From contig NW_001799622.1 of the NCBI RefSeq assembly GCF_000165425.1, forward strand, positions 1 through 64,000: a stretch of 64,000 bases of DNA. The letters are read 5' to 3'. The DNA comes from Paramecium tetraurelia. Lineage: Eukaryota > Ciliophora > Oligohymenophorea > Peniculida > Parameciidae. The position numbers were made by a program, and so were the translations under genes. Every line of letters starts with the position of its first letter. Within the stretch, counting starts at the first letter, position 1. Below, piece after piece: positions 17,158-62,761 of the stretch. The notes under the pieces are model-generated. The model saw only the letters and a program-made list of their open reading frames with translations, was not told the origin of the DNA and searched no databases.

Positions 17158-19630
17158 ATGTAGCTTACAAGCGATCGTGAAGATCCTGAACAATTAAATA
17201 CTTAAGGAGCCTGTTCTGTTGAAATTCCACCCCAAAGAAACAGGTCTTCCTCATAATACTTGTTTCACGGTCCCTAGAACAGAAAATTGAAAACATAAGC
17301 TACTGTTTCTATATTTGGGTATTGGACTTAAATAATTGATAGGACTTTTAATACATACGAAGATAAAACAACTATAACAAGAGACACTAGAAGCGTATTT
17401 ACTAGAATTGTGAAAAAACTGATCATCATACAATGTTTTTTTGATTCATTGGAGTAATATCGAAAGGAGAGGTTGTAATAAAGAATAGAGTTTTATTTTC
17501 AAAAACGCACAAAGGTGATTCCATTTTATCCTGATGATTGTCTAATTGTTTATTGGATGAAAGTTGTAACTCTACTGCAATTTTGCTCTTGTATAATTTA
17601 CCCCATGTTCATAACATTCAATGATTTATAAACTGATTTATCTTGGATTGTGATGATTTTAGATGCTCTTTTCTCCATTGACATATTATTAACGTTTTTG
17701 ACAGCTTACATAGATGAAACATCTACTTTAAAAATATAAATTGTTGATATAACAATGCATTATTTGAAAACATGGTTTATTTTTGATTCTATATCAATTT
17801 TTCCTTGGATTTCCATAGGATTGGAGAATTTGAGGCTTTTTAGACTGTTAAGAATATTAAAATATTTTATATATAAAAGAAAGCATAGCTACAAGGGGTA
17901 AGCAGACTAGCACCAAATAGTACCTTCATTTTTGCCATATAATGATATGTAATTGAAGGAGGGGATTAAATTTCTAATAGATGTGATGGTAACAGCATTT
18001 CTTTTGATTCACATATTTGCTTGTGGATATCATTATTTATTAGGAATAGAATATTTAGATGCCTTTTATCAATCAACCTAAACAATAACAACAATTGGAT
18101 ATGGTGATTGTTCTCAGTCCATCAAGTATGAATATTAAATCTTGTGGTTAATTATTGGAGTAGGGTTTTATACTTTTACAATAGGAGATTTTGCTTATAT
18201 GATGTAAAGATCTGGGGTGAATTAGGATGATGAATATTATTTCCAGCTCGAGCAATTGTCTTACGTATCTGACTTTCCAGAAAGGATAAAAAACTAGTTT
18301 CAAAGGTTCATCACAACCAACCTAAACAACAATGCCTTCTGGTCTAGTTATCATAAAAAGATGGTTCACGATTTACCATATTAAATATAGAATTATCTAG
18401 TTTTAAGTGGGATGCTGTAAATTTGTGAGGCAGTACCTTTTTTCATGTAGGATATTAATTTTACGATTGAATTATTAAATGATGTTCAATTCTTGTTTAT
18501 TGAAGAAAATGATCTAATATATAGAGAAGGCTAGAATTCTAATGAGATATATTTTTTATTGTAGGGCGACGTAAGGATAATGACTAAAAAGAAATTTACT
18601 TTATTAAATATTTTAGAGGGAACTATGTTTGGAGAATACGAGGCTATCGAGGAATCCTTGAGAGCAACTTATGCTGTAGCAATATAAAAGTCTTTGATTT
18701 TAAAAGTGGATTATGCTATTTTCGAAAAATCTATGAAGATGAGTCCAAATTTATATTTTGAAGTTTAGCAACTATTTCATAGAAGAAGAAAGTTGTTGAT
18801 AAATAGTCTTAGATATGAGAAATGTAATTATAAATAAACCATATTAGTTAGCTTAAAGAAAGAAGGTTCGAAGATCGGTTTTAATCCAATTCAGTCATGT
18901 ATAATTACAGTAAACTAGACAAGAGATGAAGAGGCAACGAGAAATCCAAGAACTTAAAAATATTAATGAATATAATCAAATGGTTCTTCAACAATTGATT
19001 GATAAAAAGAGACATAAATATGAATAATTGTTGGCAAGGTTTAAATCAGTTGTGTTTCGAATTATTCATTTTAATCAGTAATTAATCCGAACACCCCCAG
19101 AGGATTGGAAAGATTTAGACAATTACAATTTAATTAAGAGAGTATTTCCATTGCGTTGCTTATCTGATAAGTTGTAAGTTTTCTTTAGGAAATCCTCATC
19201 AGTTCACAGTCAATCAGTTCATCGAAGCTCGATTCGCAAAAGAATAGAATGCCATCCTTAATACGATAAATTTAAATGGCGACTAAGCGATATTTAAATA
19301 AAATAAATTATTTTAATGCACAATAAAAGGTCAGTGAAGGTATTTCCAACTTTAAAGAGCATTGTGTAAAATTATCAAAAAAGTACAGTAGCATCATCTC
19401 CATAGAGGATTAATAGATTCTATCCTAAATGGATAAAAGATTTAGTACTTGAAGATCATACTACTGCAGAAATGGAAAAATTTGTATTGAAGTATCATCA
19501 AATCAATAAGAGATTGGATCAGATTGATAAGATGTGGACAAAGGGATTAATTATTAGATTTGATGAATTTAAATTGAAAAGTTAAAAAGATTTAGATCAT
19601 CTTGACACTGAATCTTCTGATGATAAATGA
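17158..19630 (+). CDS. Voltage-gated K+ channel with CNBD, 815 aa
   Basis: A six-helix potassium channel of the EAG/CNG superfamily. One 25-nt intron (18894-18918, unusual GTCA donor) joins two frames to give 816 codons. S1 begins near residue 115 (LIVYWMKVVTLLQF). S4 is well formed, with basic residues every third position (LRLFRLLRILKYFIYKRK, about residues 220-237). The selectivity filter is TTIGYGD near residue 311. A C-linker leads to a cyclic-nucleotide-binding fold (NDVQFLFIEENDLIYREGQN; GDVRIMTKKKFTLL; EGTMFGEYEAIEE), and a coiled coil and basic tail follow. The start ATG 17158 is the first in frame after noncoding sequence. The kelch gene starts 138 bp downstream on the same strand. 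Unlike the three channels at 52-63 kb, it has no zinc knuckle. Confidence 0.9.
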
Positions 19631-19768: not shown

Positions 19769-21573
19769 ATGAGTGCAGCTAATTTAAATTTAGAAAGAGA
19801 CAAGTATAAAGATTTGTTGAAGAGTATAAAAGATGAATCTATGTAACTTGCCATTAGACATCAAAGCAATACATCATAAGTTCTGGAGAAAAAGAGGAAA
19901 TTAAAAATGGAATCGGAGCACACAGGAAAATTAGGTATTTATGCAATATAAAATGTCGCTAGCTCTTCCAAGCATAGAAAACAGTACTTTAGAAGATATT
20001 TCATCTCATTTCCATCTACGCAGCAGTTAAGCAGGAGAATTTGTTGAATTGATACCAAACAAATCTCAATAAAAGTTTATTTAGCAAAGCTTTCTTAAGT
20101 TGCAAAGAAATAAAATGTCTTAAACCTATCGAGATATTAGTTTAAGCGAAAAGAAATTTAAATCGCTATAACGTAAAGTTCCACATCAAGAAACATAGAG
20201 CTTAAAATAATTAGAAAAGTAACTGGGAATAGCAAAATCAACAGAAAAACAAACATTACCAACTATTTAAAGAGTATACTAATAAAAAAGAAAAGCCACG
20301 GAAGAAAAAATAGAAGAAGAATAACCAGCTGTTTCATTTTTCGAAGAGACTTTAACTTCATATTCATATGCAGTACCTAGGAGAAGGGAATCTGCACAAA
20401 TAGGAGTCATCAGAGATAGACTTTATGTATTTGGAGGTATGAGTGGAGGAGGAATAACAAATGAAGTTTGGTGGTTCGATTTAAGTATATATTTAAATAC
20501 ATTCAATAGAAAAGCAAGAATGGAGCAATTATTGTTCAAATGTTTAACTATTTATAACCAGTCATTCGATGGTTGTCTGGAAGTAATTTTTGGTTTTCTT
20601 TGGTGGATCAGGTTATTATGATCATAAAATGAAAATCAGGCAAGTTTATTCTACTATTGGTTTATTCAATACTATAAATAACCAATGGACAACTTCATTA
20701 GAATCAGTGGAACCTAGGAGAGAACACAAAGCATCAGTCCTCTTCGGAAAACTAATGGTGATTACTGGTGGATTAGATGCAGCAGAGAAATTGCTAGACG
20801 ATACATTATTTTATTCCTTGGATTCTAAGAGATGGACTGGTTAAAAGTTGTTATTTGAAGAAGGTATTGCATAGCATGCTCAATGTACAGCATATGACAG
20901 CAAAAAAAATATTGAAACTGTTTATATTTTTGGTGGATAAGCCGCCAAATTGAATTCATTTCCCTTAATGAAGATGTTATTTTATGGACTACATCCAGTT
21001 GGTTGGGAGAAAGTACAGTATTCTGGGCAAGCACCAGAAGGCAGATATAATCACACTATGGAAAATGTGGGTGATTATTTAATTTTGATAGGTGGCAGAT
21101 CTTAAGAAAAAATAGAATATCAAAATGAAATTTTTATTTTTAATCTTAAAAACAGCACTTGGATTATAGCTTAAAGATAAGGATTGTCAACAAAAAGGTG
21201 GAGTCATTCAAGTTGTGTTTATGGTAGCAACATTCTATGTTTCGGAGGAATAGGTGAAAATACTTACTTACCCCCTCATATTTATTAAATAGAGACTGAT
21301 AATTACAAAATAAGAGGAAAAATTGGTGTTGTTAAGTAATTGGCTACAATAAGTGAAGAAATCTTTAGCAGCAGGCCTCCTTTGAATATCAACAAAGATT
21401 AGGAATCAGATTCTAAGAAAGTTTGTAGATTGGAGAAATTCAGAAAAACTAGAAAAATGTATGAGCAAATTACAACCTACTTACCTTTGCCAAAATTGAA
21501 AACACCAAGAATGAGATACGATATCTTAATTCATTTTGTTAAAATCGTAATGAAATAAATTGGATACATTTGA
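19769..21573 (+). CDS. Kelch-repeat protein, 583 aa
   Basis: Two introns (19935-19962 and 20485-20509) give 584 codons from ATG 19769 to TGA 21571-21573. About 220 residues of charged, Gln-rich N-terminus precede a kelch propeller. The repeats show the expected Gly-Gly and Tyr...Trp pattern: VIRDRLYVFGGMSGGGI, SVLFGKLMVITGG, TVYIFGGQAAKLNSFPL, NVGDYLILIGGRSQE, CVYGSNILCFGGIGEN. No BTB or F-box was seen. Kelch propellers bind protein partners. It directly follows a K channel, and a second channel/kelch pair occurs at 55.6-60.1 kb, so a shared role or a duplicated block is possible. Confidence 0.85.
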
Positions 21574-33121: not shown

Positions 33122-36019
33122 TCAAGATGGTAATATTTTTTACTGTTATTCCTCCATCAATTGCATCATTTAAGTATAGGTAGTTGTTTTGGTATATGGT
33201 TTATCATTAAAAAACTACTTCAGTCTCTCGTTCTGAATGAAAGTCTAATCTTTAAATAAGATTATGAAATCTAATTTCTCGTCGTTAATGCTGCTAACAA
33301 ATGAACCTCCTCTTGCTACTACTCTAGCTTTAAAAGTTTCCAATTCTATATCAGATATTTAGTGACTTAAACAATAAGGGTAGAAATTCTTATGCTAAAA
33401 TATCCACAATTTTTGTAACTAGTATAACAACTCATCCTCTAAAGATAGTAAATCATCTTGATTAATAGGTTCATTAATTTTCATATTATCGCATATATCT
33501 TTGAGAGCAAATTCATCAATCAATTCGAAATAGGAATCACCAAATTTATCGTAGAATTTATTCACTTCATTCATGATAGCCAAAGGGGCAAATAAAATAA
33601 ATCTTGGTGCAATATTAACTAATTGCGACCTTCTAATGCATTCAATAACCCATTGAGGTCTAATTATGGTAGTTGGAAACTTCTCAATGATCGAATTCAC
33701 TCTAAAGTCGATAATTGAAGCCACTACATGAGTGACACTTTCTACGATATAATTTTATATGCAAGTTCCTCCTTAGGCTAGAATTATAGATTCAAAATAT
33801 CATTTATTATAATCTTCTTCTAAGTTAACAATATAAAATTCGCATCCTACAAACAGGTTGGATTCTTTAGTGATGTTTCTTGGATCTAACCCTTAATATT
33901 CAGTCATTATGGTAATCTATTTAGAATGGGCTCCACCTTTTCTTAAGGGTTATTTTCTTTCTTTAGCCTACCTCATAGGTCTGTCTTCATTTTCAACCTC
34001 ATCATCTGTTTATTTATCGTTTCCTTCTTTATCATTCTTCTTTTTGAGATTCTTTGTGTATTATGAGTCATTGATCATACTTGATAAATCTTGTGTGGTC
34101 ATCATTTCATACCAATCTTTGTCCATTCTAGTCTTGTAACATCTTGGAAATCTAAGAGTGTAATCGGTTGGGAAAGTATTCGACTTTGTGATTTCTGCAG
34201 CTTTAACTTCAAATATAATTGAATGAGCTGGATTATTAATATATACATCTGGTCTATCATTAACTCCAGGATTCCAATTCTAAGGTATATAATTAGGTTT
34301 CTGCTTCTTGATCCAATGATTTCTTAATTTATTTCTGATTGTTGATAATTCATTATCAGTGAAACCAGTTCCAACTTTTACAAATGGTAATATTACACTA
34401 TTAGTTGGTTAATTTTTATCTATTTTTTAAGCTAATCCCATTAAAAAATGTGTAATTCTATCAAATTCATCAAAAGTCTCTACTCTATGTGATTATGTTC
34501 CGAAATAACCGCCAATAACCAATAAATCACAATTATCCGTCATATTTTCAACGTAATCTCCCTTCATCTTAACCCATTTAGTGGATCTTTCATTAGGTAA
34601 ATACTAAGAGTCCATCTATTTAATTATGATGCCTTCTTAATTTCTTTCAATAGCCATATCAAACTGTTAAATAAGTTCTTCGAATGATTTAATAGTTGCA
34701 GCTTAAACTACTTCTAATTAGTTTGGAATAGGTACTATAATCCTCTATAATAGACTTCTACGAGTAGATAATGGAGCACTCATAGTGTTGACTTCTTATC
34801 CTTAGTATGTTTTGAGATAAAGAATATCAAAAATCTTATAGCAAAGACCAAAGGCATCATCATTTACATCTTTACTTAGAGCAACAGTTTTATTCAAACC
34901 AAATCTAACATTATCTCCGGTTTCTTTATTCACAACTATGATTTCTCCATCTAAAATTGCACATTATGCTTAAACACTCTATCTAACAATATCTCCTAAT
35001 TTATCCTTGTATAAATAGGTGTAATCGTTGGAATTTCTTGTAAAAAATCTGATGACTTCAGGAGTGAAATGACATTATATTCTTTCTCCATCAAATTTAG
35101 TTTCAACCAATAATTCTTTTCCTTCAATTAATTTTCTTATTTCTTCTGGGGATTTCTTAGCAGCTAACATTGGTTTGATTGCATGGAATATTCTTAATAC
35201 ATTCTTAAGAGTATGATTTATATCAACAAATTCTTTGCATACTTCCTTAAGTGATGATGTTGCATTATAATATTCAGGAGCATCTTTATGAAACAATTAT
35301 AATAGCTTCTCATATTTCAAACCAATTTTTAAGTCTTTCAATATAATTCTTATTATCCAGAGAATCTCATCAGCCGTACACACTTTTATTAAATCAACTA
35401 TCACTAATTCTTATTCTTTTGTATCTTAAGCCTTAACTAAATTGTCTAATAATTGGTCCACTTCTGAAATTGTTATAATGCTGTCCTTTCTGCAATAATC
35501 CTTAATTACATTATGCACAACCATGGGAAAATCACCGACTGGAGCCCCATAGGGTTACATACTTGCTTATTTATAATTGGCCATCCTGTGATAATCATCG
35601 TCTGACAATCCTAAAGCTAATCTAAATAGTTTAGCCAGGTTTTTTTCTTATAATTTATATACTCCTCTATCCCTGTCTTAGAATGGAATGATTAATCTCA
35701 TTATTATGTATGTGTGATCAGGTATTCTAGGAGGTTTGAAAAAGAATTAAGTCAAAACATCTAAAAGCTCACTCTTCTTTTTTCCTCTCACTTTACTCAT
35801 TCTATCGAAGAAGCATCTCAACACATCAAATTTCACTCTAATTGGACCTACTGTTGAACTTACATTCACTTTTTATTAATCCTATTATTCTTTGTTTAAT
35901 TTGTTGGTTTCTTCTACTTTCTCCTTTATTTCCCTTGCGAATTCATGAACTTCCTTCTATTCTCTTATTTCTTCATCCTCATCCTAAATCTCTTCATCTA
36001 AATAATTGTCCTACAACAT
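33122..36019 (-). CDS. LIG4: DNA ligase IV, 965 aa
   Basis: The ATP-dependent ligase of non-homologous end joining, partner of XRCC4. In Paramecium, Ligase IV is known to be required to rejoin DNA after programmed excision of internal eliminated sequences. The frame is intronless, 966 codons, ATG 36019 (MLQDNYLDEE) to TGA 33122-33124. After an acidic start come the DNA-binding domain (GLSDDDYHRMANYKQASMQP), the adenylation motif LLVETKFDGERI with Lys about 308, EGIIIKQMDSQYLPNERSTK, KWVKMKGDYV, and the OB fold. Two BRCT-like repeats close the protein: NITKESNLFVGCEFYIVN ... SVTHVVASIID, and ARVVARGGSFVSSINDEKLD. The linker between ligase core and BRCTs is Lys/Asp-rich. The length is close to the roughly 910 of human LIG4. 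Confidence 0.95.
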
Positions 36020-36146
36020 AATCAGAAATTGATAAGAATAATAATATTTTTATATTGAAATTGGGTAATTAGAGTGTTTAATAATGTAGTCAAAAGTAGA
36101 TTCTTATAAAATTTAATAAATTTTATTTTCATTTTATTTTTCTATC

Positions 36147-37605
36147 ATGAATTTTTGTGAATTCATATAAATCACTGTAGAGGGTGAAGATAAATTAGAG
36201 GAAATTCGAATTGCATTAGCAAGATTAGAAATGTTTGAACTTAACACAGGTATCTATTCTCATCGTTATAGTGAGTGTACAATAGACTAGATTAGCCAAG
36301 ATAGAATGCAATGAAAGAAGAATAAATTCTAGAATTTCTGGATGATAACAATCTTCAAGTTACCTAGGAAGAATCAAATTACATATTTAGAGTGTTGGAT
36401 GTTGATAGGGACAACTTGATAACATTGGCAGAGTATCTTTATATACAATATTTCAAAGTTTCCAATCAGTAATCTTACCTAAAACTAATGACTAAGTAAA
36501 AGACTAAGCTCTTAATCACAAATCCTATGAAATGCCTCAAAGCATGCTACTACCAAAAGAAGTTGAAGCTACATTAACAGCATTCTTCGAACAATTAAAA
36601 ACAAATTATAAGTAAAAAGTGTGCTCAATTTAGTCAATACGCTAATATTTAAGAACCAATCAACCTTAACGAATTAGCAATATTTGAGAGTGAAAATCTG
36701 ATAACATTGGATTCCCTTAAAAATTGGTTATAAAGTATAGGATAGGAGATTGAGGATCAAATTCTAGAAAAGTTCCTTATCATTATAGATGGTGATCCAA
36801 ACAACTTACAAAATCTAATTGAATAGATCTTTTATTAAATTGAATAGCAAGAAGATTAGCAAAACGAAGCTCCACAATAAAATTAAGAATAAGAATAACC
36901 TAAATAAAATTAAATTGAAGTTCAAGATATTAATTACTCTCAACCAGATTTATAGAAGAGTGATGCGCTTTAAGAATCATTTAATCCTAATTAAACATAA
37001 AAATAGCACCAAAATTAAGAATAAAGTGAATAAAAGAAAGATGAACAATAAGATCAAATTGCCCAATCAAAATTTTTGCAAGAAAGTTAACCGTATTATT
37101 CTGAAAGTCCTTTATTAAATTATTATCATTTGCAAATTAGGGATGAAGAAGATAAAATTAAAAAGCTATGTGATGAATTAAATATTACGAATACTTACAC
37201 CTAAAAACGAGAAGAATCCGCATTGATCAAATATTACGAAAAGGAAATAGCTAGAGAATAGGAAATCTATAATAGACTACTTTAAGAATCAAGACAAACT
37301 GGAGCCCCTTCAAAAATTTCAAAATCTACTTTCACCCCAGATCCGTTATATCTGGATGACTATCAAAGAGAAATCAATCGAATAGATAATGAAATAAGAA
37401 AAGAAACAACCAATATCAGTTTCCTCTCATCCAAGTTTGATAATAGCATTGGATTATCAACTAGTTATTTAAAGTAATAATAGAATTTACATTTAAGGTA
37501 TGAAAGTCCCCGTAAACATTAAGAATCTTATCTTTATGACAATTTTTCAGGATAAAAGGTATAACTTATATATATATTATTTAGAAACAATTTGGATATT
37601 AATGA
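36147..37605 (+). CDS. EF-hand protein with Gln-rich and coiled-coil tail, 452 aa
   Basis: Four introns (36265-36290, 36433-36458, 36612-36633, 37559-37584) give 453 codons from ATG 36147. The N-terminal part has EF-hand-like motifs: a canonical loop DVDRDNLITLADF near residue 75 and a weaker one NINELAIFESENLITLDSLK-like near 145, followed by IIDGDPNNLQNLIEQI. A long Gln-rich stretch encoded mostly by TAA follows, then charged coiled coil. A further intron may lie at the start (GTGAATTC...TAG, 24 nt, in phase). Calcium binding is inferred only for the first site. It diverges from LIG4, with 127 bp between start codons. Confidence 0.65.
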
Positions 37606-52838: not shown

Positions 52839-55519
52839 ATGCTCTCATAAAGGAGTAGTAGAAAACTTTTAGACAATGCAATTGGGCCATCTTTGAGATA
52901 TGATCCTCAGGCAAACAGATGTTATGAGAAAGATAGATCGCCTTCGAGACTATCAATAGATTCTGAGCAGCAGCTAAAGATAAATAATAGTGAGGGAATA
53001 AAGTTGAGCATACACGATACTGCAGACAAAAAGAAAACTATAAATTTAAATATTGCTAGAAGGAAATCTGCGCGAACACAATAAGTAACATTGTTGTAAA
53101 ATACTAAAAGATGAGCAAGCGAAAATCAGAGCAAACAAAAAAATTTGAAGGATTGTCCATCTTAAGAACTATGCAGCAGAATTAACTTATTTAAAAATTT
53201 GTGAATACTTTATTAATGAAATCCTATATCTTGTCAGAACATAACAAGTACCTACTAACTCAAGAAAGCTACATGCAATCTAAAGTTGATAAAACTAAAT
53301 ACTAAAGTAAAAATATTGTCATAAAAAACAGATTAAAATTAGAGTAGCACTACGAATATATTCGCACCAGGAAGCTAATTGGTGATGATATGGGATGTGA
53401 GTGCGACCTTCTTTGATTGCTTTAGTTTATGGCTTTGTCCATTTGTATCGTCATTTGTGGACGATCAAAGTTGTCGAGCAGCAGAGATGTTCTTAATTAT
53501 CCATATCATAATTGACATAATCATCCATTTGAATAGGCCCATCATGATCTAAGGAGAAATCATTTTCGATAAATTGCAAATTATATAACATTACTTTAAA
53601 GGTCAATTACTGGAAGATCTCATTAGCTTGACCATGTGGTTTTTAATGTATTTTGATTTTAATTAAATACCTGTGACTAATGAGATTATAGCACTCATTC
53701 TCATAACGATTTCTATTTTGAAGGTGAAACGAAATTATGAGAACTTTATAGAATCTCTCTATTTATAAGGTGCTGTAAACTAGTTGGTTGATCTGATCAC
53801 TCTAATAATGATGATCTACTTCTTTGCTCATTTCATGGCGTGTGTATTTCATCACGTTGGCGATTTAACCTCTGATTCTGAAAATTGCTGGTTAATACAC
53901 TACAATCTTGCGAACAGACCCATCTCAGTCAAATATAACCATTCTTTCTATTGGGCCACTATGACTATGGTCACTGTTGGTTATGGGGATATCACACCAC
54001 AGAACGAAGCAGAATTGGTCACAGTCAATTTGCTAATGCTGTTATCCAGTTGCATGTTTGGGTACTCAATGAGTTCCATTGGAATGATTCTCAAGAGCAT
54101 ACAGGATGCAAAATACAAATGCAAAAGATCCCTCATTCTAATGAATTCCTACATGAGATAGAGTCAAGTAGACCAACAGATTCAGAGCAGAGTAAGGGAC
54201 TTCATCAAGTACCAAGTTGAAATGGAGTCAAAAGAGAACAATGATGATGTCAACTAAATTATTAGTGATCTACCTAATTAATTGAAGTAAGAGTTGTAAA
54301 CCAATGTGTAAATGAACATCATGCAAAAGATAAAGATAATCACGTCCTAATTCACCAAACAAATCTAATCCGAGGTGTCTTAGAATCTCGTACAACTAAA
54401 ATTCACCCCTGGAGATTACATTTTTCATTAGGATTAGATTGACAATAACTTGTAATTATTATGCACCTATATATTTATAGATATTATATAAAGGAGGGAT
54501 AAATACAAATCACTGAAGAAAAAAGTGGTAAAGTATTGTAAGTAATTAAATCTACTAATACTTTTGGAGAATATTAGTTTTTCACAGGTCTTTCTACTAA
54601 AACCTCTGCTTAAAGCATAGGATTCTCTGAAATCTATTAAATTAAAAGAGACATCTTTCTAAAAATTATACGGTCTTCCAATAAAGATTTTGAGAGGTTT
54701 CACAATATCAAAGACAATTTGATTCTTAATTCAAATTATTATGTGATCTTCCAAAATTGCAATTTCTGTAAAATGTACACTCATTCAAACATTGATTGTC
54801 CATTGCTCAACTATAAACCAGATGCCCAAATTCTATCGATAAAAAAGCAAAGAGAACATCCATTTCAACAGCGAAAAACCTTTGTCAGAATGGGCAATAA
54901 AATTAAGTCCATGTGTATATAGCAACAAATCACCTTGGCAGTGGAGGAGTTCTTGGAAAAGCAGAGTTCATTTCACGAAGTAATTAGAGAAATCCAGAAA
55001 CACTCCGAGGAAAGTCCTAATACCTAACAGGAACAATAGCCAATCTAAATAGAAATCAAGGCCAGCGAAGATCAGCCCATAGAGAATTAAGGATCTAGTC
55101 TGCTTCCTCCCAATACGACGGCTTCAACCAATACTGGACCACCTTCTTTAGCGATGATGAGAGGAAAATCTAGTAGATATGTCTTCAATCAATCTTCAAA
55201 AGGGTCTCATCCCAAAAACTACTTTGTTATGGCCCCTAGCAATAAGGAACCGGTTAAGGAACTAATTTTAAAATAGAATTCATTTATTTACTACCTTTAT
55301 TTTATTTACTAGTTTCACTCCAATGAGATCGATTAGATGAGAGAATATCAGACTTACATGCCCTAAAATAATTGTTCCAACTCCATCAAATTAAGAGAAA
55401 AATACCTTGACAAAAAGCAATCCGTTAGATCAGGAGGAGACAATGGCTAAACCAAAACCTATATTCATCTTAGATAAAGAGATTTACTCTCTTCATAAAT
55501 ACTATCGCCTTACAATTGA
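52839..55519 (+). CDS. K+ channel with CNBD and CCHC zinc knuckle, 866 aa
   Basis: Three introns (53085-53110, 53307-53331, 54452-54480) give 867 codons. The membrane part begins near residue 163 (FAPGSQLVMIWDVSATFFDC). The S4 region (ALILITISILKVKRNYENFI) has few regular basic residues, so voltage sensing is doubtful. The pore contains FYWATMTMVTVGYGDITP (residue about 362). A C-linker leads to the CNBD (LKFTPGDYIFHQDQIDNNL; NTFGEYQFFTGLSTKTSAQS). Right after it, at residues 614-627, lies C-x2-C-x4-H-x4-C (CNFCKMYTHSNIDC), followed by PLLNY. The tail is Ser/Gln-rich. It is tandem with a close relative 74 bp downstream. Confidence 0.9.
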
Positions 55520-55593
55520 AATCCAAATATTAGCAACATTTTAAATAACCTATCAAGAATAACCTATTTACTAAATTATTATTATTTATAAAT

Positions 55594-58246
55594 AATGGAT
55601 TCACCTAATTTAATCGTCTTAAATACTGAACTGCCAATAATGGGACCTTAGCTTTCTCCAAGATCTTCCTATATCAAATATGTTAAGAATTGTTCATCTT
55701 CATACATTTAACAAGAAAGCGAAAGAAACGAAGATGAAATGTTCAGTCCAAATTTAAGTGATAATCACTAGGAACAGAAATTAATTAATTTGGAATCTAG
55801 TAGAAGAATATCAAAAAAGTTAGAAACATTTAAATTTACTTAGATAGCAAAATAAAACAAAATTATAGAGAAATTCAAAAACAATCTGTTATAATTTTCG
55901 TACATAATGCCATAGAAATTTAAAACAAAGTTATTATCAATTGAAAATTATTTGCAGAAAGACAAACTGAAAAAAACATCAAGTATTAAGTCCAAATAAT
56001 TTATAGCTTAGATCACCGGCAAGAATTAAAATAATATTATTTCTCCCTCTAATATATTGTTATTTTATTGGGAAATTTTCAATATTCTTATACAATTCAT
56101 TTCTCTCTGGATTTGTGCTCTCATTGTATCGTTTTCAAATTCATAAGAAGTTAACTTTCAATTCTTTGGTTGTTTATTTATTAGCATAAACATTATAGAG
56201 ATGATTATCACAATAAATAAAGAAATATATATAGAAGGTTAAATCATTAATACTCGAAATGATATTCTTGTTAATTACTTAACTAAATCATCCTATTTGG
56301 ATGTCTGCTCAATATTTATCTGGATTATGATATCCTTTAGAATGATTGAATAGAATAGCATAGTGCAAGTGTTTGCAATCCTTCTTTTGATAATTATATT
56401 TGCCAGAATCTTTCGTGTATATGATTACATAGTGGAATAGCTATATTAAAAAGGGTTTGGTGGTTATGCTTTTGATCTGTTAACTCTAGTTGTAAGCATC
56501 TACTTCTTTGCTCATATAATGGCTTGTTTATGGCTGATGGTTGGATTGAATTCAAGTGGGGAAAGGATGAATTGGTTACGGGATAATGATTTGGAAACTG
56601 AAAGTATTTGGACTCAATACAATAATGCGTTCTATTGGGCCACAATGACAATGGTTACAGTTGGATATGGAGACATTACACCAAGGAATAACTATGAAAT
56701 GACCTTTGCCAATGTAGCTATGTTTTTTTCAAGTTGTGTATTTGCTTATTCGATGAATGCAATTGGTATTTTACTGAAAGGATTCAATGATGTCAAATAA
56801 AATTACAAGTAATAAATCGAAATATTAGAAGAAAGTCTGTAATCATAATGAATCAATACATGAAATCAAATAATATTGACGATGAAATCCAGAACAAAGT
56901 TAGAAACAATCTAAAATATTTAATATAAAATTAGGAAGGTGATAATATCGATGCAAACAAATTAGTTAATAAATTATCAATAGGACTTTAATAAGAATTG
57001 TAGGCAGATTTACTTGAAAAGATTATTAAGAATATAAAAGTGTTATCCTGCAATTTTAGTAAATAAATTTTACAAGAAATCCAGGGATTAGTAAAGATAG
57101 TCTAATTTTCACCAGGAGAGTTCATTCAAAAGAGTGGAAGTGTATTAAATGAAGATGAGATATTTTTGTAAGCAAGATATAATATCTTAGATATTATATA
57201 ATGAAAGGGAATGTGAACTTTATTTCAAATACCACAAATTCATTGATTTACAAATTAGGAGCAGGAGAAACATTTAATTAATATCAATTTTTTACTGGTT
57301 TTGGTGATTAGAAAATTGATATTATAAGTGATGACTTCTGTCAATTAGTTAAATTGAACAAATCCCAGTTCATAAAATTAATATTTGAATCCAAAAGAGA
57401 TTGGGAAATATATCATTCCATCAAAGATAATGCAGCTAATAATAATGATTTGATTGACTTAAATTACAAATGCTAATTTTGTCAAAGGAATACACATTTA
57501 AGACAAAGTTGTCCTCTGCTAACCTACTAACCCAATATACAGCATAAAATAAGAAAGCAAGATTAAAAGAAGTATGAGCAAATTAGATCTCAAGTGAGTA
57601 GAAATTGTGTAAAATTGAATAGTAAAATGATTCTAGACGAAGTGAAAATGACTATCTAATAATATATGATGAATAATATCAATGACTTTAATGATAATCT
57701 TTCTAGGAAGGAATCAAAAGTGATTGAATAGGACGATGATTAGTAATTCAAAAAGATTGAATTTATTTCAAGTACTCCTATTTAGATTAACAACCCTTCA
57801 GCTAAGAAAGCAACTATAATTTAGAATCTGGGGAGTCAAAATTACATACGAAGTAAGCTTCCAGCTGGTACTCCATTAAGAGCAAATAATCAATTGAAAT
57901 TTCATAAATAAACGTCCCATCAAAATTCAACAAATCAATCATAACCAATAGCATCTCAAACTAATGTGTAACCGGCAATTTAATTTAGGATGCTCGATCA
58001 TGTTTTCGACTCTATGAAGTTTACTTATATTAACATTGATAAAATGCATAATTATATCAATTATTTACCTCACAACAATTTACGACGGATTTTGATTCAG
58101 ATGGATGCTTAAAATTAGCATCTCAAAGAAACATCTAAAGGGTTGATCAAAATTGATAAATCTCTTGGATTCACTGCCAAATTGAAAAGTGGGAAACAGA
58201 GGAGCAACAATGCTTTAAAATAAAGTTAGCCCAATATCAAGGCTTG
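55594..58246 (+). CDS. K+ channel with CNBD and CCHC zinc knuckle, 869 aa
   Basis: Two introns (56809-56828, 20 nt; 57168-57190, 23 nt) give 870 codons from ATG 55594. The layout matches the channel just upstream. S4 (VFAILLLIIIFARIFRVYDY) carries only two arginines. The pore reads FYWATMTMVTVGYGDITPRN. The CNBD includes KIVQFSPGEFIQKSGSVLNE and GAGETFNQYQFFTGFGDQ. The CCHC knuckle CQFCQRNTHLRQSC is at residues 612-625, followed by PLLTYQPN. The C-terminal 220 residues are polar and Gln/Ser-rich. The kelch gene starts 28 bp downstream, so the two may be transcribed from a very tight spacing or share a history as a pair. Confidence 0.92.
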
Positions 58247-58274
58247 AAAATATATAAATAATTAATATATATAA

Positions 58275-60127
58275 ATGAGTGAACGACACAGATTTTCCAG
58301 TTAATAAAAACTTCCAATCTTAGATTTGACATAAACAAATAGATTTCCGACGGAAGGACTTAAAGTTAATGTAATGTCTTTTTAAGGAAATAGATTACAG
58401 TCTAATCAGGTGATGCATAATTCGTTAGTTTCAGATCTTTAAACGAACTCAATCCTAAGTTTGGCTTTCCTATAAACTCCATGGATTCATCATAACAATT
58501 AAATTAAACAATCTAGAACGACCTAACCTAGAATAAGAAAATGCTTTTGATGTTAGGAAAAACTCTTTACAAATAAAAAAATGAATACTAAGAATATCAG
58601 GAAAACATGATTGTAATGATTTGCTTTAAATTAGAAAAAAATAAGAACCGTCACCAGAATGTAAAAGTAAGTTAAAAAAGTTCCACATCGAATCGAGTCT
58701 TTTAAAAATACTTATGATAATTCTCCAAATGCTATCCCATAATTTGCAAAAAAGAAAGTGTCATTCCCAATGTATTTTAATGGAGCATTTTTTACAAAAC
58801 TTTAGCATGTTTGGGTACCTACAATTAGAGAAAACACTATGGCAGCAGATTTCTAAAAAAAAATATACATGTTTGGTGGAATAGGAAGTGAAGTTATGGG
58901 TGATTTAATTGAATATGAAATACAAACAGGTAAATTTCGAGAGATTAAACAAAATGGTGATATTCCTCTCAATCGTTATGGTCATTGTTTACATAGTATT
59001 GGTTACCCAATGACTTTGTCGACTCAATTTTCTTATGACAATTAACAGTATAGTTAGATCAATGGGAAACAACTCATAATGTATGGAGGGGAAATGTAGT
59101 ATAATTCTGCTTTGAAACTAAGAGAAAATCTGAGTGACACTAGAATTTTTGATTTGGAAACAGAAACATGGTAAATACTAAAACCAAACATTGAGAATAT
59201 TCCTGAAAGTAGAAGATCCTTTGGTAGTTGTATAGTAGGGAAGGGATTGATTGTTATGGGTGGTATTCGAAGCAGATTCTCAGTTTTCAATGACATTCAT
59301 TATCTGAATTTAAGTAAATTTTAGTAGTAAATTTAACTTTAGATCTTTGTAAATGGAATCCATTAGATACATTTAAGAATCCATTTAATAAAGGATTGGC
59401 ATTCCAGTAATTAGTTTGTGCTTATAATAAGCCATAACTGATCTTTGAAAAAAAGGATACAAGAAGCAAACCCTACAAACCACTTGAACATGAGGGAATC
59501 TATTGTTTTGGAGGGTGCTATATAGATGAAATGAAAAATACGTAATTCTACAGCAATTTTATGGCACTCTTAAAATTAGATTAACCCAATAATCCCTGGG
59601 TAATTCCTGAAACTTCTGGAAAACAGCCTGCTCCCAGAATTCAACATACAGCCTCCTATGTATAAGAGATGAATATCATAATCATCTTTGGTGGTCGAGA
59701 TGACTCTAGGAGCAACCCTTATTTTAATGACTTATTCGCATATAAGATTTAAGAAAAGGAATGGGTTCAATTAGACATTTATGGCAATCTTCCAAGGCCA
59801 AGAGCATCTCATTCTGCTGTGGCTTACAAAAGTCAAGTGTTATATTTTGGGGGAGTGAGTATGAATGGATACCTGGAATTTTCAGTTAATGTGGCAGAAT
59901 TTAATTAAAATCAGATCAGACAATTACAAGCAGAAATGAAAGCCTATGAACAAACAACAGAAATTCAAAGTCCAAAAGAAGAAAGACAATCGATTTTAAC
60001 TAAACAGTATTTCTCATTGCATTAAGCTGCCCCCATCTAAAAACCTAAATAATTGACAAAGGCTGAGGAAATGAATTAACAGATCTAACAACTGTCCTTT
60101 TCAAATTTTCCTCTACATCTTAAATGA
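58275..60127 (+). CDS. Kelch-repeat protein paired with a K channel, 592 aa
   Basis: Three introns (58371-58393, 58613-58634, 59314-59342) give 593 codons. A polar N-terminus of about 150 residues with a coiled-coil-like part (KTLYKQKNEYQEYQENMI) precedes kelch repeats: QKKIYMFGGIGSEVMGDLIE, INGKQLIMYGGEMQYNSALK, GKGLIVMGGIRSRFSVFNDI, GIYCFGGCYIDEMK, MNIIIIFGGRDDSRSNPYFN, YKSQVLYFGGVSMNGYLEF. A Gln-rich C-terminal tail follows. The order channel-then-kelch repeats that at 17.2-21.6 kb. The stop is 40 bp from the convergent stop of the third zinc-knuckle channel. The substrate or partner is unknown. Confidence 0.87.
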
Positions 60128-60167
60128 ACTTTATGATTGATATATTATTAATATAAATTTATAATTT

Positions 60168-62761
60168 TCATTCAATATTAACAGTTTTTAAATACAAGAG
60201 TTTCAATTTAAGAGCTTTGATCTTCACATTATAGAAGAATGTGTACTTATTCATATTCAAAACATGCTTTTCAAGCTTCTTTTGGTACTTTATATTGTTT
60301 TTTTCTAAAGATTAGATAATGTTTTCGAGGTTTTATCGTGGATAATACTTTTCATAGGACTGTTACCTATCACATTGGATAACTGGAGGGTACCACCTTG
60401 CATTTATGTATAAATCATCAATCATATTGAAATCTTTAGGTGTATTCGTTTATTCCTTATGAATTTATCTAGACTGAGAAAGTTAATTTTCAATTTAAGA
60501 TTATTGGTCTGCTTTAATTCCAATTCTATTCAAAGAGCAGTCATAGTATTATTGTTTTTATTCTTAATCCTAGTCTTCAGTGACAAAGCAAGATGATCGC
60601 TTTTACTCAATATTTTGAACTTCAGAATAATTACTAGTTTTAGATCTATGGGCTATTATAGCCACTTACAAAGAGTGAGAGAATTCAACTCCAGCAGTTG
60701 TATCTTCTGTAAAAAATTTGACTGATTTGGATATCTCCGATTATTATAGAATGCTTTTTATCTTACTTCCAAATCTTCTCCTCTTTTGTCTTTGTTAAAT
60801 TACAGGGTAAAAATTACCCTTTTTTATCCTCTGCTCAAGATCTGGCTTATATGTCAAAACAGGACAGTCGATTTCTTAATGATTCTACCTTTCACAATAT
60901 TTACATTCCATAGAAAATAATCTATAATTGGAATTAAAAATAATTTAATCTTTTATGAAATGAAACATTTCTAGATCTCTCTTGTTGAATTATAAAATAT
61001 CTAAAAATTTGTTCCTACTAATTCTATAAATATTGGAAAATCCCACACTGACAGCTGATGTTTTTGGAGGAAAATCAGTAAAGAATTAATAAATTCCGAA
61101 TTGTTAATGCTAAAATAGTTTTGAGAATTTCATTTTGCTTTAATCATCCTAAATATCCACTTCTCCTTCTATGATGAAGTAAAGGTTCTTATCAGAGACA
61201 TCTCCTCTTTTATAAATGATATCTCCTGGAGCATACTTAACTAATTCTAAGCTTTTCGATAATAATTGCTAAGTATTGCATGAGAAATGGTTTATAACTA
61301 GTCTTGCCTTATTGATGACTTTTCTCTGGATATCAGTATTTAGATCCAATTATAAATTTTATGGCAGAATCCCTACAAGTCTATTGATATCTTCTAAATT
61401 TTCATTCTATTCAGATTCGATATAATATTTGAGATAATTTCTAATTCTACTCTAAATTTGTGGCTCAACACAATTCTTGCTCATGTATGTATTCATCTAT
61501 AACAGAGATCTCTTATATTTCAATTTGGCATCATAGATGTTCTTGAGGATCATGCCTATAGAATTCATAGAATATGCGAATATTCCACTAGACAAAAACA
61601 TTACTACATTAACAAAGATAATCTCAATTTAACTTTATGCAGTAATATCTCCATATCCCACAGTTGTCATAGTCATTGTGGCCCAATAAAATGCATAATT
61701 ATACTTCTTCCAGATGGCTTCGTGTTCCAAATCATATTTTATTAGCCAAGATTATTCTCCTGATTTAACCCCAACGTAATGCCAGGCACAGGCAACTATA
61801 TGAGCAAAAAAGTATATGGAACAAATCAGACTTAACAAATCCATTATATAACTAGATACTCCTTTAACAAAGACATATTGGAAATAATCTGAAAAATATT
61901 TTTATATCTTATAGAATGTAACGATTAATTGGCATATAACGATGCATTCTCCAAGAATTTGATAAGACGTTAAGTTTTTTTAGATCAAAATCCATAAGGT
62001 TAAATTAGTTAAATCAGTGGTTGCATTGGTTTAGAAATATTATTGAATCAGTTTTTTTCTCTTTTTAATCACAATCCCTTAAACAATGATGCCTTTGTTA
62101 AAGGAAACAAGGATGTCACTGATTAGGAAGAATGTTGTTAATTACATGATAACATCAAAGGAGAAATAGTTTTCCATGTTGTCAAAAGATAATAAAAAAG
62201 GAGTGAACCACAGAATTATCAAATTAAGCAATATTCCTAAGGCATCCCAGACAATGATTGCTATGCTCGTTGGCATAATGATTGGGATCCTTGATTAAGA
62301 GAGGGATTCTTAAAACATTAAATTATCATATTACCCATGCTTTATTGTTTGTTTCCTTCTTTAAGATATTCATCATTCAAAATTTATTTTTTATTATTCT
62401 ATAAAACATATGAGTTTGTAAAAAGATTATTAATAAATTGCTTTTTAATACGTTCTGTTTTCAAAGCCTTCAGAAAATAGTTATAACCTGCAGAATTTCC
62501 GATTGTTTTAGATGATTTAAAAGGAGTTGTGGATTCGCAGGTTTTTCTCTAAGCAGTTTGAGTCAATTGTTGTTCCTGTATAACTAATCTTGGTTATCTC
62601 AAATTGTGGCGAGTGTTTGATTTGCTCCTTTCACAATCTATTATTTGTCTTTCACTATCTTCTGAAATTTCAGACAATCTGGATGCTGACTCACTTTTAA
62701 ACGTAACTTGTTTTGTGATCATCCTTGGCTTTTGATTAGAATATTGATCCTGCTGAAGCAT
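60168..62761 (-). CDS. K+ channel with CNBD and CCHC zinc knuckle, 855 aa
   Basis: One intron (62309-62334) gives 856 codons from ATG 62761 (MLQQDQYSNQKPRMITKQ). The N-terminus is polar, and the first helix starts near residue 155 (IAIIVWDALGILLNLIILWF). The S4 position (QILGECIVICQLIVTFYKIQ) has no arginines, so it is probably not voltage-gated. The pore reads FYWATMTMTTVGYGDITAQS. The CNBD has LVKYAPGDIIYKRGDVSDKN, LYFIIEGEVDIQ and FFTDFPPKTSA, a fair phosphate-binding cassette. The knuckle CKYCERQNHQEIDC is at residues 611-624, followed by PVLTYKPD. It is inverted relative to the two sister channels, with a kelch gene between. Confidence 0.92.

Follow-up and report, generated by a model that had tools for sequence, protein, structure and literature searches.

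Channel genes of the window and their CCHC motif

The window analyzed here comprises the first 64,000 nucleotides (forward strand) of contig NW_001799622.1 of Paramecium tetraurelia and contains four genes for channels with a cyclic nucleotide-binding domain (CNBD), three of which carry a CCHC motif of the zinc-knuckle type behind this domain. The many Paramecium K+ channels are reportedly the subject of a 2003 paper by Haynes et al.; the conserved CCHC-knuckle-type motif behind the CNBD, described below, is a real family trait of one ciliate K+ channel clade.

The gene models of the three knuckle channels (genes 1, 2 and 3, Table 1) were spliced by us with introns of 20-29 nt and with TAA and TAG read as Gln, a code and intron length that fit a Paramecium-like ciliate; the least certain intron of gene 1 is intron 1, which ends in AAG. 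All three genes encode the K+ selectivity filter T-V-G-Y-G-D, at residues 362, 355 and 358 of genes 1, 2 and 3, respectively, and a pore domain over the PF07885 cut-off (41.3, 41.7 and 38 bits). Gene 2 also matches PF00520 (39.5 bits). The cut-off of PF00027 is passed by genes 1 (32.2 bits) and 3 (46.4 bits) and not by gene 2, whose CNBD exon fragment scores just 12.8 bits. The six-transmembrane pore domain, C-linker and CNBD are shared with SthK, CNG, HCN, KCNH and the plant SKOR/AKT channels, and the Protein Data Bank (PDB) sequence matches of gene 3 include SthK, CNGA1, HCN4, SKOR and KCNH.

Translation of the window in six frames, again with TAA/TAG as Q, yields exactly three stop-free C-x2-C-x4-H-x4-C motifs (at +54758, +57471 and -60905), all with the spacing of the zf-CCHC type (PF00098) and one in each of the three genes. 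The initial annotation had reported such a motif at a nearly equal residue of three channels, followed by a common P-[LV]-L-x-Y-x-P, and both observations are confirmed: the first Cys is residue 614, 612 and 611 of the spliced models, and directly behind the knuckle stand PLLNYKP (gene 1), PLLTYQP (gene 2) and PVLTYKP (gene 3). Its placement of the motif behind the CNBD is likewise correct, at about 10 residues past the CNBD C-helix in the three channels. The gene coordinates that it gave stand for genes 1 and 3, and those of gene 2 shift by one base, from 55594-58246 to the span in Table 1.

Table 1. Features of the window; coordinates count from the first nucleotide of the window.
Feature	Position	Strand	Remarks
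Gene 1, six-transmembrane K+ channel with CNBD and knuckle	52839..55519	+	866 aa; spliced model opens in one frame
Gene 1 exons	52839-53084, 53111-53306, 53332-54451, 54481-55519	+	
Gene 1 CCHC knuckle	54758..54799	+	CNFCKMYTHSNIDC, residues 614-627
Gene 2, CNBD K+ channel with knuckle	55595..58247	+	869 aa; spliced model
Gene 2 exons	55595-56808, 56829-57167, 57191-58247	+	
Gene 2 CCHC knuckle	57471..57512	+	CQFCQRNTHLRQSC, residues 612-625
Gene 3, CNBD K+ channel with knuckle	60168..62761	-	855 aa; spliced model, intron 62309-62334
Gene 3 CNBD core	60990..61241	-	PF00027 match, residues 360-443 of the open frame
Gene 3 helices B and C	after the CNBD core, to ~60933	-	
Gene 3 CCHC knuckle	60864..60905	-	CKYCERQNHQEIDC, residues 611-624
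Gene 3 post-knuckle segment	60768..60863	-	P-x-L-x-Y-x-P-D, then a basic part in which Arg is well conserved at alignment columns 119 and 124
Fourth CNBD channel, other subfamily	17158-18969	+	filter TTIGYGD; PF00520 40.9 bits, PF00027 43.1 bits
Kelch-repeat open frame	59396-60127	+	between channel genes 2 and 3
Kelch-repeat open frame	20443-21573	+	
Open frame of 1655 residues	42904-47871	-	EML/WDR90-like beta-propellers, CFA20 domain stretch at the start
ATP-dependent DNA ligase	33800-36247	-	all three domains

Extent of the family and conservation of the ligands

The genome (69 Mb, 231 contigs) was searched with two queries. The first, 124 residues of gene 3 running from the CNBD to the knuckle, gave 205 candidates, among which 150 matches were scored and 71 were inspected at the DNA level, the window genes included. 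In 67 of these 71 loci the motif is uninterrupted; in a further locus (C9:198646) it follows an intron, another (C80) shows C-x2-C-x3-H-x4-C, a form one residue shorter than the long one, and two lack the His. The second query ended inside the CNBD, so that selection was independent of the knuckle; its matches without a first-query neighbour amount to 56 places, 22 of which were inspected. The 20 best-ranked of these all possess the knuckle (nine long-form, 11 short-form), five of the short-form loci having the knuckle codons split by an intron of 22-37 nt immediately ahead of the last Cys (L074, L077, L079, L080, L084); C227 and C208, near the bottom of the second-query list, show no knuckle in the DNA inspected. 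The family thus totals 91 loci: 77 with the long form, 12 with the short form and two without the His alone. Loss of the Cys and His residues in further members was the finding that the initial annotation regarded as fatal to its proposal; all four ligands are present in 89 of the 91 loci. Seven contiguous short-form rows form one tree group (support 100/96), in which two long branches meet. Across 60 paralogue regions (251,396 bases), 65 stop-free motif matches occur, all of them channel knuckles, versus 0.0 per mononucleotide shuffle (five shuffles).

The filter pattern T-[VILM]-G-[YFLI]-G-[DEN] was not found in 15 of the same 60 regions (L009-L068), four of which read ISVGYGD while the rest show none by the patterns used. 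One small clade of four members (L020, L024, L026, L027, on C13, C20, C23 and C26) has lost the His in two, and no canonical K+ filter was found in the fetched DNA of any of the four. K+ selectivity may be missing in some of the filter-less members, or their pore exon may be split or lie outside the stretch.

In an alignment of 85 rows and 126 columns, whose rows were located by a pattern requiring the Cys, the three Cys are invariant and the His is kept in 83 rows; the six of the 91 loci in which an intron precedes or splits the knuckle are the only ones left out, and each has the full motif once spliced. The four ligand columns are the lowest in entropy of all 126; the next places go mostly to columns of the CNBD and of helix C and to two Arg of the tail behind the knuckle, which stand 7th (column 124) and 10th (column 119) in conservation. 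The CNBD itself is recognizable in most rows (70 of 85 match PF00027 at E ≤ 0.1). The canonical Glu and Arg of its phosphate-binding cassette, at positions that we take to be those of HCN2, occur together in just 23 of the 85 rows; none of the three window genes has both. Retention is therefore far stricter for the zinc ligands than for the canonical residues of nucleotide binding, and the knuckle persists where those residues are lost.

Codon comparison points in the same direction for the ligands and in another for the rest of the knuckle. In 22 non-overlapping paralogue pairs, the 88 ligand codons differ synonymously 33 times and non-synonymously 0 times, a zero that is partly built in since only class A rows were compared, yet just two of the 91 loci fail. 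The other knuckle codons of the same pairs carry 67 synonymous and 54 non-synonymous differences in 220 codons (non-synonymous 0.245), while the 60 codons ahead of the knuckle carry 436 and 208 (non-synonymous 0.158); the non-ligand positions of the knuckle thus diverge faster than the codons ahead of it.

Structural position and distribution among CNBD channels

The distance from the Glu of helix C to the first Cys of the knuckle ranges from 18 to 25 residues and equals 22 in 52 of 85 rows. Gene 3 was modeled with AlphaFold2, the confidence being given as predicted local distance difference test (pLDDT). A model from five window rows reached a pLDDT of 43; with five bacterial channels added, the C-linker and CNBD improved and the knuckle did not. 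In the resulting ten-row model, the C-linker and CNBD (residues 1-200) have block means of 71-92, with 83-92 for residues 91-200, and residues 201-210 a mean of 64. Helix C occupies model residues 190-206 and the first Cys is residue 216, which puts the start of the knuckle some 10 residues past the lid helix. The tail that follows has a mean net charge of +4.8 across the family over about 32 residues (range -2 to +9). Foldseek with the model places CNGA1/B1 and SthK chains on top.

Gene 3 has its best match among PDB sequences in a 1471-residue 'Cyclic nucleotide-binding domain protein', 7W5Z chain C, aligned with residues 6-684 of gene 3 (E 8.8e-67). The 85-row profile matches the same chain at E 1.2e-30 over positions 4-125 of 126, taking in the knuckle CYNCKKIGHISSSC and, in the tail, both Arg residues. 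Among the best 60 of 154 PDB matches to the family profile, only this Tetrahymena chain spans CNBD, knuckle and tail; for the remaining CNBD entries among those 60, the best-matching stretch ends ahead of the knuckle. The entry is absent from the 50 Foldseek matches listed for the gene 3 model. According to PMC10060162 and PMC10263302, both of which cite the entry, 7W5Z is a structure of Tetrahymena complex IV; a channel sequence is thus recorded in a respiratory complex entry, and our guess is that it represents a fused gene model. With the match running through knuckle and tail, the knuckle would be older than the Paramecium-Tetrahymena split, if the recorded sequence is Tetrahymena's own.

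Within the P. tetraurelia genome, the motif belongs to one clade of CNBD channels. The fourth channel of the window, which the initial annotation leaves unmentioned, contains no contiguous C-x2-C-x2-6-H-x3-6-C in six frames, and eight more CNBD channel loci, drawn from its matches, have no knuckle in 441-501 bases each; its relatives include C182:17176, with 87% identity. The uninterrupted motif is accordingly absent from nine of nine other CNBD channels examined in this genome, a search that an intron-split knuckle could slip through, although none was seen by eye. A knuckle near-universal among the CNBD channels of this genome is excluded by these nine loci. Moreover, 95 CNBD places outside both family query lists (131 of 150 CNBD places were typed) have no zf-CCHC match within 300 bp, which is a poor test of absence, since just 10 of 36 knuckle-family CNBD places have a match behind them. 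Of 247 bacterial loci found via the pore, 80 were kept; none of these has a stop-free knuckle, and the five nearest, which possess a complete CNBD, terminate at helix C. In viral and prokaryotic contigs, the peptide patterns of a profile of the CNBD-knuckle exon matched 90 and 116 stretches, respectively, none of which proved to be a relative.

The relation to known zf-CCHC families is partial. Window genes 1 and 3 have no zf-CCHC-type match at E ≤ 1, and gene 2 matches only PF21890 (18.4 bits) and PF13696 (12.4 bits), both with cut-offs of 27. In the wider family, 23 of 85 rows match zf-CCHC at E ≤ 0.1 and 14 paralogue channel loci reach the PF00098 cut-off (20.8 bits); because of these 14, automatic domain databases may already mark zf-CCHC on some of these proteins. 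Genome-wide, knuckle channels account for 37 of 74 zf-CCHC matches at E ≤ 10 and for 14 of 34 at 20.8 bits or more. The family profile also matches TUT4/TUT7 with a whole-sequence E of about 1e-6, no single stretch passing alone. The C-x2-C-x4-H-x4-C spacing is that of the retroviral-type knuckle (PF00098; Lin-28, TUT4/TUT7). Unlike it, the channel knuckle is single, stands behind a CNBD, is near-neutral, seldom has Gly before the His and is followed by a channel-specific basic tail.

Candidate roles of the knuckle

We propose, with about even confidence, that the knuckle is a constitutive structural zinc site capping the CNBD lid helix (C-helix) in this one, greatly expanded ciliate K+ channel clade. 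The CCHC knuckle, built in line behind the C-helix that serves as ligand lid, most likely holds one Zn2+ constitutively, and together with the P-x-[hydrophobic]-x-[Y/F]...R-x4-R tail it would form a small cap pinning the end of the C-helix. Such a cap would steady the tetrameric C-linker/CNBD ring and be needed for ring folding, assembly and coupling to the pore, whether or not the subunit has kept its ability to bind a cyclic nucleotide. We favour this reading because the ligands are strict, the knuckle surface is free to vary, the spacing is near-fixed and the basic tail is conserved; the 18-25 residues between helix C and the first Cys suit an integrated cap better than a loose tether. Partial precedents exist in K+ channels. 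The T1 domain of Kv2-4, a cytoplasmic assembly domain, contains a structural zinc, at a site that is N-terminal, lies between subunits and differs in fold and spacing. In KCNH channels, the stretch behind helix C serves as an intrinsic-ligand segment for a CNBD that has lost nucleotide binding; the likeness lies in this position, and no zinc motif is known there. Several observations weigh against the cap: the knuckle has a pLDDT below 50 in both AlphaFold2 models and thus no confident structure, the His is replaced by D or N in two members of one small clade (C20, C23), other CNBD channels evidently manage without such a cap, and the variable knuckle surface could equally mean diversified partners.

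The last point leads to the main rival, docking of partners, behind which zinc/redox sensing comes next and RNA binding is least supported. As a docking module, the zinc fold would be a mere scaffold whose variable surface and basic tail bind paralogue-specific partners (ciliary targeting, cytoskeleton or lipids), sorting the numerous K+ channels to different places. The fast non-synonymous change of the non-ligand codons beside unchanged ligands, the basic tail and the very large family (150 scored of 205 candidates) favour docking, which we regard as possible though clearly less probable than a cap: the short, near-fixed spacing from helix C and the tail Arg, conserved in the paralogues and in the Tetrahymena sequence, suggest one common job. 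Reversible zinc loading or Cys oxidation might instead move helix C and gate the channel, replacing cyclic nucleotide control, as the location directly behind the lid helix and the retention of the knuckle where canonical nucleotide-binding residues are lost would allow; a CCHC knuckle usually binds its zinc too firmly to serve in sensing, and we consider such a sensor unlikely. A further arrangement, about as doubtful, combines these elements: knuckle and tail would fold back on the C-helix as a substitute for the nucleotide, locking the ring through zinc, and the zinc/redox state or surface partners would set gating in the majority of paralogues, which lack the canonical residues.

The initial annotation had also hinted at a role in RNA, such as localization of the channel mRNA by a knuckle acting like those of nucleocapsid or TUT-type proteins. 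RNA-binding CCHC knuckles have Gly before the His and a basic charge; in the channel family, Gly precedes the His in 7 of 85 rows and the mean net charge of the knuckle is -0.05, so these features are not those of the family. The zf-CCHC and TUT4/TUT7 matches and an aromatic first knuckle position in 54 of 85 rows speak for nucleic-acid binding; the fast-changing, non-conserved surface and the presence of a single knuckle on a membrane-protein ring speak against it, leaving the hint weakly supported and, in our estimate, quite improbable. A functionless chance motif has next to no probability, being refuted by ligand conservation: the shuffles gave nothing comparable to the 65 knuckles in 251 kb of paralogue DNA, and the complete ligand set recurs almost throughout the family.

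A literature search found no account of a zinc knuckle in a CNBD channel, though an earlier mention in Paramecium K+ channel work is possible, and zinc is not mentioned in the available parts of PMC8535419, PMC8964087, PMC3283738 and PMC10227065; the statement in the initial annotation that no channel family was known with such a knuckle therefore holds so far. The knuckle provides a compact marker for a very large radiation of ciliate K+ channels. With zinc ligands that persist and canonical nucleotide-binding residues that are often lost, these channels pose a testable question about their regulation, and the knuckle offers a metal site for switching or dissecting the C-terminal ring.

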